Source of the DNA: Candidatus Thorarchaeota archaeon
Lineage (GTDB): Archaea; Asgardarchaeota; Thorarchaeia; Thorarchaeales; Thorarchaeaceae
NCBI GenBank assembly: GCA_016933575.1
Contig: JAFGAR010000081.1
Coordinates: forward strand, 124,001 to 188,000
Direction of reading: 5' to 3'
DNA: 64,000 nucleotides
The position numbers and the translations under genes were made by a program. Positions 27,853-34,523 of this stretch are shown here, in pieces. The first letter of the stretch is position 1, and the number at the start of each line of letters is the position of its first letter. Below the pieces are notes generated by a model. The model was not told the origin of the DNA. It saw only the letters and a program-made list of their open reading frames with translations, and did not search any database.

Positions 27853-28008
27853 TTTGATTGGACTACTTTATTGTACAAACTAATTGTTGGTTGATACCCA
27901 TGCAATATAATATGCATGATAGTTACTCAATAAATATTGTGAGCCATATATTACAGTAGGCTCTTATAGAGCCATTTTCAAATAGTACTCGATGGAGATT
28001 GATATCCG

Positions 28009-29343
28009 ATGACCTCTCCCAAATCAGCTTTAAATATTACTATCTTCTGGGATGTCGAGAATGTTTCTGATGATTTGGCTACGCACAGGAACATGACCGA
28101 GAAGATCAAACAGACTGGAAACGTAGTGAAAGCCTATGCATTTGCAGATTGGGACACTCGACGGCAGATGGCAATCGACCTGTATCAACTTGGGTATGAT
28201 TTACTCCATGTCCCCGACACCAAAGATAATGCTAGCGATTACAAGATGGCTTCGTACATCTTGGATCATCTTATCCACTACCCCAAAACATCTCGTTACG
28301 TACTTGTTACTGGGGATGGAGATTTCAAATTGCTTGCAGGGGCTCTTAAAGAACGTGGAGTTGATATTTGGCTTATCAGCAATCCAATCATCACAGCATC
28401 CGAGCTCCATGACATTGCATCAACTTATAGTGACATATTCTCTTTCAGACCTGGTTTGGATTGTGTAAATCCTGAAGACTGCGATGAGTCTGTCCAGAGT
28501 ATAGTTCAACTTCGACATTTAGCTGCTGTTCAACTTCAGGAAGTCATTCGGTTGATAACCAACACTGGCAATAAGCCTGGAGTTGGTCATGCTAAACATG
28601 TCATGACCTCGCTTAACCCTGATTTTAATGAGAATGATCTAGGTTTCAAACACTGGCACGATTTCCTTGATTGGGCTGAGGCTGAAGGATATATCAAACA
28701 TGAAAGAGATCTACCCAGCTCGCTACTGAAACTTCCTACAGAATTACCCCCTCATTCTGTAACAATATCAACAGAAGTAAGTCAGGCCTTCGCGTTTATT
28801 GCAAAAGTTGCTGAAGATAGTCTTACTGAAGGAAAACCCATATCATTGATGGAACTCGGAACAAGAATCCGCCAGCTCGGTTTGGAGTTTGAGAAAATTG
28901 GGTACCGACGATTTTCCGACTTTGTACTCGCCGCTGAAAAACGTGGTATAATACGAATTTTCGCTCCAAAAAAGGAAGGAGAGTCACCCATCGTTCTTCC
29001 GGTATATACAATTGAGCACTTACAGGATTGGTTTGAGGAAAATGTTGAACGAATATTCGGAGCCTCTGTCAATGTTCCCAAGGCCCCATTCTTGAAGAAG
29101 ATCTCACAGACTCTACTTGAGACTCAGACGAGTCTCTCTGAACTTGAAAATTATCTCACAGCTCCGCCTGTCAAAAACGCCTATAGTGTAATATTACAAG
29201 CGAGTGACATTCCATTCTTACCACCATACCAACAATCGCTTGCACACATACTAATTGGAAAGGGTATCGAGTGCAATGATGTTGTTACAAAGGTGAACTT
29301 AGAATTAAGCCCATTGGGCATAAAATTACAATGTCCAACTTGA
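28009..29343 (+). CDS. NYN (PIN-like) nuclease domain protein with two OST-HTH/LOTUS domains
   Basis: TIFWDVENVSDD...NASDYKMASYILDHL...YVLVTGDGDFKLLAGALKERGVDIW; LOTUS-like GFKHWHDFLDWAEAEGYIKH and SLMELGTRIRQLGLEFEKIGYRRFSDFVLAAEKRGIIRI. Confidence 0.85.
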   Translation: MTSPKSALNITIFWDVENVSDDLATHRNMTEKIKQTGNVVKAYAFADWDTRRQMAIDLYQLGYDLLHVPDTKDNASDYKMASYILDHLIHYPKTSRYVLVTGDGDFKLLAGALKERGVDIWLISNPIITASELHDIASTYSDIFSFRPGLDCVNPEDCDESVQSIVQLRHLAAVQLQEVIRLITNTGNKPGVGHAKHVMTSLNPDFNENDLGFKHWHDFLDWAEAEGYIKHERDLPSSLLKLPTELPPHSVTISTEVSQAFAFIAKVAEDSLTEGKPISLMELGTRIRQLGLEFEKIGYRRFSDFVLAAEKRGIIRIFAPKKEGESPIVLPVYTIEHLQDWFEENVERIFGASVNVPKAPFLKKISQTLLETQTSLSELENYLTAPPVKNAYSVILQASDIPFLPPYQQSLAHILIGKGIECNDVVTKVNLELSPLGIKLQCPT

Positions 29344-29383: not shown

Positions 29384-30475
29384 GTGTCAAAGATGAATTC
29401 CTATGAGAAATTGGCAGCAACATTGGACAAGATTCCTAATGGATTTCCTGCAGTTGAAGATGGCACTCATCTTCGGATACTTGAATGGATTTTCACCCCC
29501 GAGGAAGCTGATTTGGCTAGCCAACTCAAACTTCGAGGTGAGACCTTGGAAGAGTTAGCGAGGCGCTTAAATCTTCCAAAAGAAGATCTAGAATCACGTC
29601 TGGATATTATGATTTCAAAAGGACAAATCAATTCTTGGATATCTAAGAGTGCAGGTGCAAGAAAGTATTCCTTACTTCCATTTGCTGTTGGAATATTTGA
29701 AGAACAACTTGGGCGTATGGATGAAGAATTGGCTCGAATGTTAGATAGTTACTTTCAATACGGATTCAAGAAAATCACTGCCACTGAACCTGTGATATTC
29801 AAGGTAATTCCAGTTAATCAGAGTCTAAGCTCGGATTTGAACGTCCACCCCTACGAACAAGCCGAACAACTTTTGGAGAATGCTGCATCTTGGGGAGTAC
29901 GTGAGTGCATTTGTAAGAAACAGAAAGCACTCATAGGAGAACCCTGCAGCTATCCAACAACAGTCTGTCTTGTATTTGCAAAGAACAAAGTTGATGCATT
30001 TGAACATGATGAGCTGACAAAGACAATTACAAAAGAAGAATCACTCAAGCTCTTAAAAGACGCAGAAAATGCTGGTCTGGTCCATTGCTCCTACAATACA
30101 CAGTCTGGTCATAACTACATTTGTAACTGTTGTACCTGCTGTTGCGGTGTTCTCAGAGGAGTCAATGCTACTGAGCACCCAAGGGAGTACATCAAGACCG
30201 ATTTCCTAATCTCAATAGATACTGATTTGTGCTCAGGGTGTGGTACTTGCCTCGACCGCTGTCAGTTTGAAGCACTGAGTGTTCCTGAGGATATCTGTGT
30301 GGTAGATCCGGAACGGTGTATAGGGTGTGGCGTCTGTGCTATTGTGTGTCCTGAAAACGCTCTATCCCTGGTCAGAAAGAGCAGTCCTGATAAACCACCA
30401 TCTCCTGAAAATACTCTGGATTGGATGACTCAACGTGCAATCTCTAGAAATGTTGATCCCTCTGACATTTTGTGA
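29384..30475 (+). CDS. 4Fe-4S ferredoxin-domain protein with N-terminal HTH-like region
   Basis: CSGCGTCLDRCQFEAL and CIGCGVCAIVCPENAL; extra Cys cluster YICNCCTCCCGVLRG. Confidence 0.85.
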   Translation: MSKMNSYEKLAATLDKIPNGFPAVEDGTHLRILEWIFTPEEADLASQLKLRGETLEELARRLNLPKEDLESRLDIMISKGQINSWISKSAGARKYSLLPFAVGIFEEQLGRMDEELARMLDSYFQYGFKKITATEPVIFKVIPVNQSLSSDLNVHPYEQAEQLLENAASWGVRECICKKQKALIGEPCSYPTTVCLVFAKNKVDAFEHDELTKTITKEESLKLLKDAENAGLVHCSYNTQSGHNYICNCCTCCCGVLRGVNATEHPREYIKTDFLISIDTDLCSGCGTCLDRCQFEALSVPEDICVVDPERCIGCGVCAIVCPENALSLVRKSSPDKPPSPENTLDWMTQRAISRNVDPSDIL

Positions 30476-30521: not shown

Positions 30522-31505
30522 TTGTTGGAATTACTGATGACCCTCGGTACCGACTCAAGTAAGAAACAAACAAAGGCAAAGAAGAATCGCTCAAAGGCGT
30601 ATATCCCCCATCTTGCTGAGTTTTTCTTCGAACCAACATTTGATTGGAGCTACGATGAGGCTAAGCATCTATTTGAGCTAACTGCAAAAAAACATGATTT
30701 TGTTCAATTGGATACTGTTGAGTTTAGAGAATGTATAGATGGAATGAGATGTCTTCCAGATTCTTCAGTGAATTTGATTATTGCTGACCCTCCCTTTGGA
30801 ATAGATTTCAATGGTAAAAGTAGTGTCTATAACCGTGATGATGAACTTGTCATTGCTGGATATGAAGAGGTTCAGGGTTCATACCGGGCGTTTTCCAAAG
30901 CTTGGATGAAAGAACTCCTTCGAATAATGAAGCAGGATGCTTCAGCTTACATATTCAGTGGGTGGACAAATCTTGATGCTATACTGGCTGGTGCAAACGA
31001 TGCTGGTCTTAAAGTACTAAATCATTTGATCTGGCACTATCCTTTTGGTGTCTACACAAAACGTAGGTTTGTCACAAGTCATTATCATATTCTCCTTCTT
31101 GTTAAGGACTTAAAGTCGTATTATTTCAATAAGATAGAGAATTACCCTGAAGATGTTTGGATAGTGAAGCGGAAGTATAGAACTGGACTTGAAAAGAATG
31201 GAACAAAATTGCCTCTTGAAGTTGTAGCACGTTGCGTTGACTTTTCTTCAAGACCTGGTGACATTGTACTTGACCCATTCTTGGGAAATGGTACAACTGC
31301 TGTAGCTGCTAAATCGTCTTTCAGACATTTCATAGGGTTTGAGATCAATGAGGAATTGAAGCCCTTACTGAAGCGTGAGATTAATGCAGTCATTCCTGGT
31401 CAATCCTACAGACCCTATAGAGAACGACTTCCGACCCTGAAGGATTTGTCACAGCTATACCCTAGGGCTTATCGAGAATATTTGAAAAGAGCGGGAGAGA
31501 AATAA
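30522..31505 (+). CDS. DNA methyltransferase (N6-adenine/N4-cytosine, beta-type motif order)
   Basis: NLIIADPPFGIDFNGKSSVYNRDDE (motif IV) precedes VLDPFLGNGTTAVAAKSSFRHFIGFEINEE (motif I). Confidence 0.88.
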   Translation: MLELLMTLGTDSSKKQTKAKKNRSKAYIPHLAEFFFEPTFDWSYDEAKHLFELTAKKHDFVQLDTVEFRECIDGMRCLPDSSVNLIIADPPFGIDFNGKSSVYNRDDELVIAGYEEVQGSYRAFSKAWMKELLRIMKQDASAYIFSGWTNLDAILAGANDAGLKVLNHLIWHYPFGVYTKRRFVTSHYHILLLVKDLKSYYFNKIENYPEDVWIVKRKYRTGLEKNGTKLPLEVVARCVDFSSRPGDIVLDPFLGNGTTAVAAKSSFRHFIGFEINEELKPLLKREINAVIPGQSYRPYRERLPTLKDLSQLYPRAYREYLKRAGEK

Positions 31506-31538: not shown

Positions 31539-32978
31539 ATGGACCCTGAAGATTTGTTTGTAGAACATGGTTCTTCGTTCGACAGACTTGCAGATGCTTC
31601 TAGTCCAAGTGATATTTTCACAAGGCAATTCGGTACTGAGTTCACCCAATGGGAATTCATGTTTTTACAAAGATTCCACGAGCGCCTATCTGGGAAAAAA
31701 TCCCTCTATCGTGGGTTTGTTCACCATACACGTGATACATCTCTAGTTCTTCTTACACCAAGTCCTTGGTTAATGGAGGGCGAATTTATCTTTTTCAAGG
31801 ATGACCAAAAACTACCTGCTGATGGCTCTTATATTGAGGTAATTGGGCGGCGAATTGCTGATGCTGGGGCATTACAAAGATCTAAGACATTGCTTCGAGC
31901 AATCTCAGTCGATTCCTATCAGATGCTTCCTATGGACTTCATGGAGCAAATCGCGCCACCTATGAGTCTTAAAGAACTATCATCACTTCTGTTTGAACGG
32001 GTTGGTATGGCCGAGGCAAGCAAACGGGTCTTTGCCAGACTCTTTGTTTCTAGTCCTCCTTACCAGAATGCTATTGGTGGTCTTACTACTGGTATTCAAG
32101 CAATTGCATCACAGACACAGATCAAACGATTTCTTTCGTTTATACGTCGTGTCCTCCCACCATCGATAGCACGAAGAACTGCAACTAATATGGATGTACG
32201 AGGAATTAAGGTCATGAATCCAAGAATTTTCAGAGTCGATATTGGTTCACTATCCCATTCAAGACTGGAAAATCTCTGTATAGAAAGACGCGACCCCTCT
32301 GGGTTTAGAGAGGTCTCTATAGGTACCCTTACTGAATCGGAAACTGCTATACTTCCAGATATTCCTCTTGCTCTTGCATCAGAGGATTTCTGGATTGAAA
32401 CTGGTAACCCAATGGAGCTCCGTTTACCCATTCTTAAATCTGCAATCACATATCAGCTACTTACTCCCTCGCTGTCACAACGTACTATTGATTCGACCAC
32501 AAAACATGTTCTTTCACGACTCGAGGACCTTCAGGAGAGTTTTGGCCTTGATGAAAGTGCTTTGGCTCGAGGGCACGTTCTTGATGCAGACACTCTTGGT
32601 AAACCGCTTAGCACATTGAAGATTGCTCGTTCTACAGCTAGAGCATCATGGAAGGATAAGGTCACAACCAAGGAGATGAAGTCCGCTTGGGACAAAATTC
32701 TAGAACCTGCACTCAAGGAATTTCTAGAACTCTCTGAGATACGGAAGGTATCGGAGGAAGACTGGGGTAAAGGTGCTCGTTTTGATAAGTTCAACACGAA
32801 AGTTCTGAAAGCTATCCGAGACCTTGATTCTGGAAAGAGAGGATCCCTTGGACCAACCTTACAGGAAATAGCCGAGGAAGCTGGAGTAGAGCGTCATGTG
32901 GCTGCAGAGACCCTGAGTCGAATGAAGGACAGTGGAGTTCTCTATGAACCGAGACCGGGTCACTACCGGCTTGTCTGA
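31539..32978 (+). CDS. Large hypothetical protein with C-terminal winged helix
   Basis: 479-aa ORF; C-terminal LGPTLQEIAEEAGVERHVAAETLSRMKDSGVLYEPRPGHYRLV; no Walker A. Confidence 0.6.
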   Translation: MDPEDLFVEHGSSFDRLADASSPSDIFTRQFGTEFTQWEFMFLQRFHERLSGKKSLYRGFVHHTRDTSLVLLTPSPWLMEGEFIFFKDDQKLPADGSYIEVIGRRIADAGALQRSKTLLRAISVDSYQMLPMDFMEQIAPPMSLKELSSLLFERVGMAEASKRVFARLFVSSPPYQNAIGGLTTGIQAIASQTQIKRFLSFIRRVLPPSIARRTATNMDVRGIKVMNPRIFRVDIGSLSHSRLENLCIERRDPSGFREVSIGTLTESETAILPDIPLALASEDFWIETGNPMELRLPILKSAITYQLLTPSLSQRTIDSTTKHVLSRLEDLQESFGLDESALARGHVLDADTLGKPLSTLKIARSTARASWKDKVTTKEMKSAWDKILEPALKEFLELSEIRKVSEEDWGKGARFDKFNTKVLKAIRDLDSGKRGSLGPTLQEIAEEAGVERHVAAETLSRMKDSGVLYEPRPGHYRLV

Positions 32979-33926: not shown

Positions 33927-34523
33927 TCAGGGAAATGCCTTAAGAAACTCTTCTGGTTCATCTCCTTCCTCAATAATTTCGATGTCTTGAACACCAACCC
34001 GTTCAGCATCATATCTACGAGCAAGAATGTTCCCATCGAACTTCTCCCTAGCCGAGGCTTCCTTTCCTCGCCATACAAAGATGTCATCCCATGTATCAAG
34101 GATGAAGACATCATCAGTCTTGAGAGATTTTCTATTGACAGGAACTTCAGCAAAGAAGGTCTCGTCACCTTCTCGGTGGACCTTCCAGAGCTTGTACTCG
34201 TGAGTCTCAAGGTGAACTTTTCGTAGAATTCCCTCTGTATCTTGATCAGTAAGCTGAAAATCATCGAACAGACTCTTGAATTCCTGTGGTTCATTCCCTC
34301 CTTCTATACGGTCAATATCTGCTTTTCCCTCGCGTTCTGTGTCACGCATGACGGCAGCAGCCGCAGTCAGGAATTTCTCATCAACAGTCGACTTAGGTCC
34401 AATCCAGAGGTAAATCTTCAGTCCAGCATCGACAAGATAACAGTCTCCTCGACCAAATTTTCCTGGATCTGGCATCCTAACAAGTCGGCCCTTTTGAATA
34501 TGATAAACGATTGGTTCCGGCAT
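33927..34523 (-). CDS. Two-domain gelsolin-like protein
   Basis: FGRGDCYLVDAGLKIYLWIGPKSTVDEKFLTAAAAVMRD...ID and LKTDDVFILDTWDDIFVWRGKEASAREKFDGNILARRYDAERVGVQDIEIIEEGDEPEEFLKAF. Confidence 0.9.
   Translation of the reverse strand: MPEPIVYHIQKGRLVRMPDPGKFGRGDCYLVDAGLKIYLWIGPKSTVDEKFLTAAAAVMRDTEREGKADIDRIEGGNEPQEFKSLFDDFQLTDQDTEGILRKVHLETHEYKLWKVHREGDETFFAEVPVNRKSLKTDDVFILDTWDDIFVWRGKEASAREKFDGNILARRYDAERVGVQDIEIIEEGDEPEEFLKAFP

Follow-up and report, generated by a model that had tools for sequence, protein, structure and literature searches.

The window analysed here, a stretch of 64,000 nucleotides from the genome of a Candidatus Thorarchaeota archaeon, carries on its positive strand an ORF for a protein of 444 aa (28009..29343, +) with an NYN domain, two LOTUS/OST-HTH units and a C-terminal domain. 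The ORF is real and well bounded: its start is well fixed because an in-frame stop lies two codons 5' of the ATG (the open frame spans 446 aa), and it is not a chance reading frame, since full-length orthologs (49-72% identity) and more distant paralogs (about 32%, group B, see below) were found in about 25 Thorarchaeial genomes. A GGAG ribosome-binding-like site lies near the gene start (27994-27997, +). By-eye comparison of the upstream sequences of 17 family members showed a conserved element, CAGYARGCTCWTATAG (27954..27969, +), which is the probable TATA-box region of an archaeal promoter; most orthologs have similar TATA-like elements at much the same spacing from the gene. In the window copy the element overlaps a perfect palindrome, GGCTCT-TAT-AGAGCC. 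The palindrome was considered as the upstream element and discarded, because it showed no conservation in the orthologs, where the TATA-like core alone was kept.

The NYN domain (LabA/limkain-type, PIN-like nuclease domain; residues 8-146, 28030..28446, +) matched Pfam PF01936 at E=1.5e-19 (71.4 bits, cut-off 24.2), a profile match that makes the assignment unambiguous. The motifs singled out in an earlier sequence-only reading of this DNA are all present in the ORF: WDVENV, within FWDVENV (D15, E17, N18), NASDYKMA (D77) and TGDGDF (D103, D105). An AlphaFold (AF2) model of the protein, built with 27 homologues (pLDDT 88.4, pTM 0.81), had as its sole significant structural matches in the PDB the bacterial protein VPA0982 (2qip, Foldseek 4.8e-8) and the NYN domain of MARF1 (5yaa, 1.1e-6, TMt 0.85, and 6fdl), and its PIN-like fold agrees with these solved members. 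MARF1, or limkain b1, is an animal NYN-RRM-LOTUS endoribonuclease; its active site is formed by Asp358, Asp426, Asp427 and Asp452 (PMC6294520). Residues D15, D77 and D103 of the window protein correspond to MARF1 D358, D426 and D452, Y78 stands in place of D427, and D105, the second Asp of GDGDF, is extra with respect to MARF1, as in bacterial members.

The two units that follow, LOTUS/OST-HTH 1 (residues 165-241, 28501..28731, +) and LOTUS/OST-HTH 2 (residues 248-331, 28750..29001, +), were modelled as winged helices, with the order H165-185 H192-202 H208-211 H216-225 E230-232 E239-241 in the first and H248-273 H280-289 H294-297 H302-311 E315-318 E328-331 in the second. In both, helices 2 and 3 are separated by an additional short helix (208-211 and 294-297), a feature described as distinctive of OST-HTH (Anantharaman et al. 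2010, PMC2848206). The window copy gave one sub-threshold Pfam match to OST-HTH, at residues 274-308 in LOTUS2 (21.7 bits, E=1.8e-4, cut-off 23.8 bits), and 21 of the 27 family members matched OST-HTH at E<=1 (best E 4.9e-8). With the segments taken alone, OST-HTH was matched by LOTUS1 in 8 of 11 members (best 4.1e-5) and by LOTUS2 in 5 of 12 (best 0.018). Comparison with hhalign paired LOTUS1 with LOTUS2 at 89% and LOTUS2 with bacterial OST-HTH at 95%, the pairing of LOTUS1 with bacterial OST-HTH being weaker (54%); weak PDB sequence matches to 2kpm came from the LOTUS2 profile (E 1.2) and, over LOTUS1, from the combined profile A6 (0.037). Homologues, profile-profile comparison and the confident AlphaFold model together support both units as real but divergent. 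OST-HTH being recovered family-wide, the proposal of an archaeal NYN nuclease with two LOTUS/OST-HTH units held, as did the likeness of its domain order, NYN then tandem LOTUS, to limkain/MARF1-type proteins. The net charges of the two units are -5 (LOTUS1) and +1 (LOTUS2), so that electrostatics do not by themselves imply RNA binding.

A third part of the protein, absent from that earlier description, is a six-helix C-terminal domain (residues 335-444, 29011..29340, +), modelled with high confidence. Its mean column identity was 62%, as against 50% for LOTUS2 over nearly the same members. Pfam and PDB profile searches with it returned no match, and hhalign gave a probability of at most 0.6% against any LOTUS or OHA segment (for OHA, see below). 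A phylum-wide search of 228 Asgard genomes found the domain in Thorarchaeia only. The matches were NYN-LOTUS copies or short fragments, except for one weak match in genome G137 (E 0.004); the short ones, one at a contig end in G039 and one a 63-aa frame in G032, seem to be pieces of window-family members. Among the data searched, the domain is specific to the window family.

A scan of genome contigs with the window protein found relatives in Thorarchaeota only. The family falls into two groups. Of the 16 genomes from the genus of the window, 13 carried group A, to which the window protein belongs; several further Thorarchaeial genera have it too, and the alignment of its full-length members showed D15, N18, D77, D103 and D105 to be conserved. 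Group B, found in six genomes, has lost D105; its paralogs L024, L025, L030 and L031 keep all the domains, with SGDAVF, SSDAVF or SGDAGF replacing TGDGDF, so their active site is possibly changed or reduced. Without the second Asp of GDGDF in group B, some family members may not be active nucleases. Together with the Tyr that replaces MARF1 D427, this loss would suit an NYN domain that is no longer an RNase, the window protein then being an RNA-binding or scaffold protein. We consider this quite improbable, in view of the five residues conserved throughout full-length group A and of MARF1 itself, which is active even though its motif, STDVNF, also has no counterpart of the second GDGDF Asp (PMC6294520).

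The gene opens a compact row on the positive strand, with gaps of 33-46 bp. It is followed by genes for an Fe-S protein with two 4Fe-4S motifs (363 aa, 29384..30475, +; Pfam Fer4, 1e-14), a beta-class DNA methyltransferase with CcrM-like order (327 aa, 30522..31505, +; N6_N4_Mtase, 2.6e-35; PDB match to CcrM, 4.3e-25) and a protein resembling the MCM C-terminus (479 aa, 31539..32978, +; profile A5 against the MCM structure 8x7t, 5.3e-5). The methyltransferase is an orphan, without a recognisable restriction partner, and sits in a vertically kept row. In the last protein, the C-terminal 120 aa match the C-terminus of archaeal MCM including its winged helix; the remainder had no match and no Walker A motif by eye, so it is possibly a degenerate MCM paralog. 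Beyond these genes come gelsolin, Fpg, M20 peptidase, luciferase-like and Ham1 genes. The gelsolin-repeat protein, which adjoins the conserved row on the negative strand (two matched stretches within 33927-34523, Pfam 2.2e-30), belongs to a known type of Asgard actin regulator. Synteny supports the positions of all three row partners: at nine further group-A loci the MCM-like gene was found in 9/9, the methyltransferase in 8/9 and the Fe-S gene in 7/9, while group B and OHA-type genes have other surroundings. The spacing and the synteny suggest that the row is one transcript or operon.

The methyltransferase also suggests a defence or conflict system, in which it would mark self and the NYN-LOTUS protein would destroy invader RNA. 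The linkage to a Type II-like or orphan DNA methyltransferase and a weak PADLOC match to LabA/NYN (23 bits) fit this reading. It is nevertheless unlikely: the synteny is stable and chromosomal over many genera, beside the housekeeping-type Fpg, Ham1 and M20 peptidase genes; there is no island-like scatter, and viruses and plasmids yielded no close copy of the window family; and the MCM-like partner had no PADLOC match. Searches of viral contigs (queries, the window protein, A1 and A4) and of a phage collection (query, the window protein) found no relative. The tight conserved row of Fe-S, orphan methyltransferase and MCM-like genes therefore most likely reflects a housekeeping role, not mobile defence.

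Bacterial NYN(DUF88/LabA)-OST-HTH proteins, such as VPA0982 (2qip, NYN only) and NE0665 (2kpm, OST-HTH), are among the closest known counterparts of the window protein. They share with it the order NYN then OST-HTH (one or two units in bacteria) and the acidic (G/S)DxDF motif; they differ in the start motif, (V/L)IDADN-type against FWDxEN, and the window protein has two LOTUS units, a unique C-terminal domain and a separate lineage in the tree. In the 2010 survey by which OST-HTH/LOTUS was defined, archaeal cases were very rare and were put down to late transfer from bacteria (PMC2848206). Such an origin would agree with the shared order and with tblastn matches to bacteria, which were weak and confined to residues 1-248 (best E 0.01), and other Asgard genomes do carry bacterial-type copies. 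The family-specific C-terminal domain and the identity of only about 22% to the best bacterial matches speak against it, as do the NYN trees: the window family and the bacteria as one group (the bacterial rows being plasmid proteins and VPA0982) were rejected at p-AU 0.026 without the four long rows, a value that, like the others given below, is uncorrected over several groupings. The nearest sisters of the window family were the Asgard proteins L079 and L081, with support of 79-89, which is not strong. A late bacterial transfer is thus very improbable for the window gene, and the recent transfer that the sequence-only reading had named as its possible refutation does not appear in the tree. 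On these comparisons the family is Asgard-native, and the window gene is vertically kept in Thorarchaeia.

The two sister genes, L079:2225-3388 (G103) and L081:1795-2829 (G086), lie outside Thorarchaeia and encode NYN and LOTUS-like units without the C-terminal domain. The bacterial-type copies, L064-L067 (G156, G099, G076 and G077), are proteins of 248-260 aa that nest among bacterial ones, L064 sharing 63% identity with a protein of a Streptosporangium plasmid; they are likely transfers. Two Caballeronia plasmids (L144, L148) carry NYN frames of 390 and 468 aa with a CDFENV motif, which by score (19 bits) are nearer to MARF1 than the stereotypic bacterial NYN-OST-HTH proteins are.

With MARF1 the window protein has in common the NYN fold (TMt 0.85), the FWDxEN and NA(A/S)D motifs and the order NYN then tandem LOTUS. 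The two are about 20% identical and differ in that the window protein has two LOTUS units against the eight of MARF1, an extra C-terminal domain and, in the Pfam scan, no RRM. A version with closer likeness to MARF1 was found in three other Thorarchaeial genomes: L093:1991-3529 (+, G031, of the same genus as the window), L091:1234-2733 (-, G009) and L094:2017-3513 (+, G002). These NYN-LOTUS-OHA proteins carry the motif FWDIENC.PP, to be compared with FWDIENCSVP in MARF1, and a C-terminal OHA domain (PF14418) scored at 31.9 (L093), 36.4 (L091) and 35.5 bits (L094) against a cut-off of 26.1. OHA reached the cut-off in these 3 of 228 Asgard genomes only, 14 control genomes gave no such match, and the profile scan showed PF14418 to be absent from the window protein and its genome. 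The window protein aligns with L093 across NYN-LOTUS1-LOTUS2 (E 6e-11, residues 9-312 of L093); the OHA-type proteins differ from it by their OHA domain and FWDIENC.PP motif and, probably, by a third wHTH-like unit, and they are without the C-terminal domain and the gene row of the window family. The model of L093 was built from three sequences only (mean pLDDT 61.9), and at this low confidence its secondary-structure order alone was used; in it, OHA is preceded by two winged helices that are clear and by a third that is probable.

Elsewhere, OHA is found in the plant proteins MNU1/2, which consist of NYN, two LOTUS, OHA and a putative WW (PMC9181182), and in Plasmodium Md1 (PMC9750867); the examples in both papers are eukaryotic. 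The Thorarchaeial NYN-LOTUS-OHA proteins share the arrangement of MNU1/2. Set beside the window protein by published layout, plant MNU1/MNU2 and DNE1 likewise combine NYN with LOTUS modules, and the window protein is without the OHA or WW of MNU1/2.

Searches with the MARF1 NYN domain ranked the three OHA-type Thorarchaeial proteins first (36-41 bits). Behind them came further proteins from Asgard genomes, the two from Caballeronia plasmids and the window family (group A at 9-17 bits), while stereotypic bacterial NYN-OST-HTH proteins stood at the bottom with about 0-4 bits. In the PDB, the OHA-type profile matched MARF1 at 1.8e-14 and bacterial VPA0982 at 0.3, whereas the window-family profile matched VPA0982 (7.8e-10) better than MARF1 (1.6e-7). 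The NYN trees, in which MARF1 was the one eukaryotic gene and had a long branch, of roughly 3.5-4.3 changes per column, joined MARF1 and the OHA proteins with support of 100/97 over all rows and 99/97 without the four long rows. Without these rows, MARF1 with bacteria was rejected at p 0.042 and MARF1 with Caballeronia at p 0.027, evidence that at 0.03-0.04 is modest. The grouping of MARF1 with the window family was rejected over all rows (p 0.010) and not without the long rows (p 0.234); because the rejection holds in one tree only, we do not claim that the window protein is unrelated to MARF1. That MARF1 has closer relatives in Asgard archaea is well supported by the searches and trees, and the suggestion that the window version might be specially close to eukaryotic ones did not survive: MARF1 groups with the OHA-type proteins, and the window profile is nearer to VPA0982. 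Judged by sequence, the NYN-LOTUS-OHA proteins are the nearest relatives of MARF1 in the data set searched. Contamination is an unlikely source of their genes, because the frames are uninterrupted, occur in three genera and are 42-46% identical to L093, and because one lies on a contig of 1.55 Mb from a genome that is 98% complete. Their distribution is patchy (3 of the 47 genomes of the class), and they may have been transferred from eukaryotes to Thorarchaeia.

Taken as a whole, the observations are best explained, with a probability of roughly two in three, by an Asgard-native chromosomal NYN-LOTUS endoribonuclease that takes part in the housekeeping turnover of RNA, linked with maintenance of the chromosome. 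By analogy with known members of the family, the NYN site (D15, D77, D103, D105) would cut RNA with Mg2+ or Mn2+, and the two tandem LOTUS winged helices would choose the RNA or present it to that site. The RNA is possibly G-rich or structured, in line with reports on DNE1 and with the LOTUS-G4 result of Ding et al. 2020, the latter in the form in which PMC9181182 relates it. The Thorarchaeia-specific C-terminal helical domain may mediate oligomerisation or partner binding, and the protein would act in RNA turnover tied to the chromosome rather than as a mobile defence gene. The conservation of three of the four MARF1 acidic residues and the promoter-like element upstream of the row count in favour of this explanation; the replacement of MARF1 D427 by Y78, the charges of the LOTUS units and the loss of D105 in group B count against it.

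Relative to the 2010 survey (PMC2848206), two things stand out: Thorarchaeia vertically keep an NYN-LOTUS protein with its own extra domain in a stable row, and three Thorarchaeial genomes hold a MARF1/MNU-like version bearing an OHA domain. In the open-access papers searched we found none joining the LOTUS domain with Asgard archaea, and the combination of Asgard and NYN domain led to pseudomurein genes only. The OHA-type proteins, which lie outside the window, are a more interesting lead than the window protein itself. Tentatively, and with more doubt than confidence, we propose a native Thorarchaeial radiation of NYN-LOTUS proteins, in which the OHA branch would be the prokaryotic sister of MARF1/DNE1/MNU and the window protein would represent a row-bound, Thorarchaeia-specific branch. 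If this is true, eukaryotes would owe both their LOTUS nucleases and the germ-granule LOTUS domain to the Asgard side and not to the bacterial transfer proposed in 2010. Should a wider tree confirm the grouping, the origin of the eukaryotic LOTUS nucleases, which bears on a module of germ granules and of P-body-linked decay, would become directly testable in Asgard archaea.
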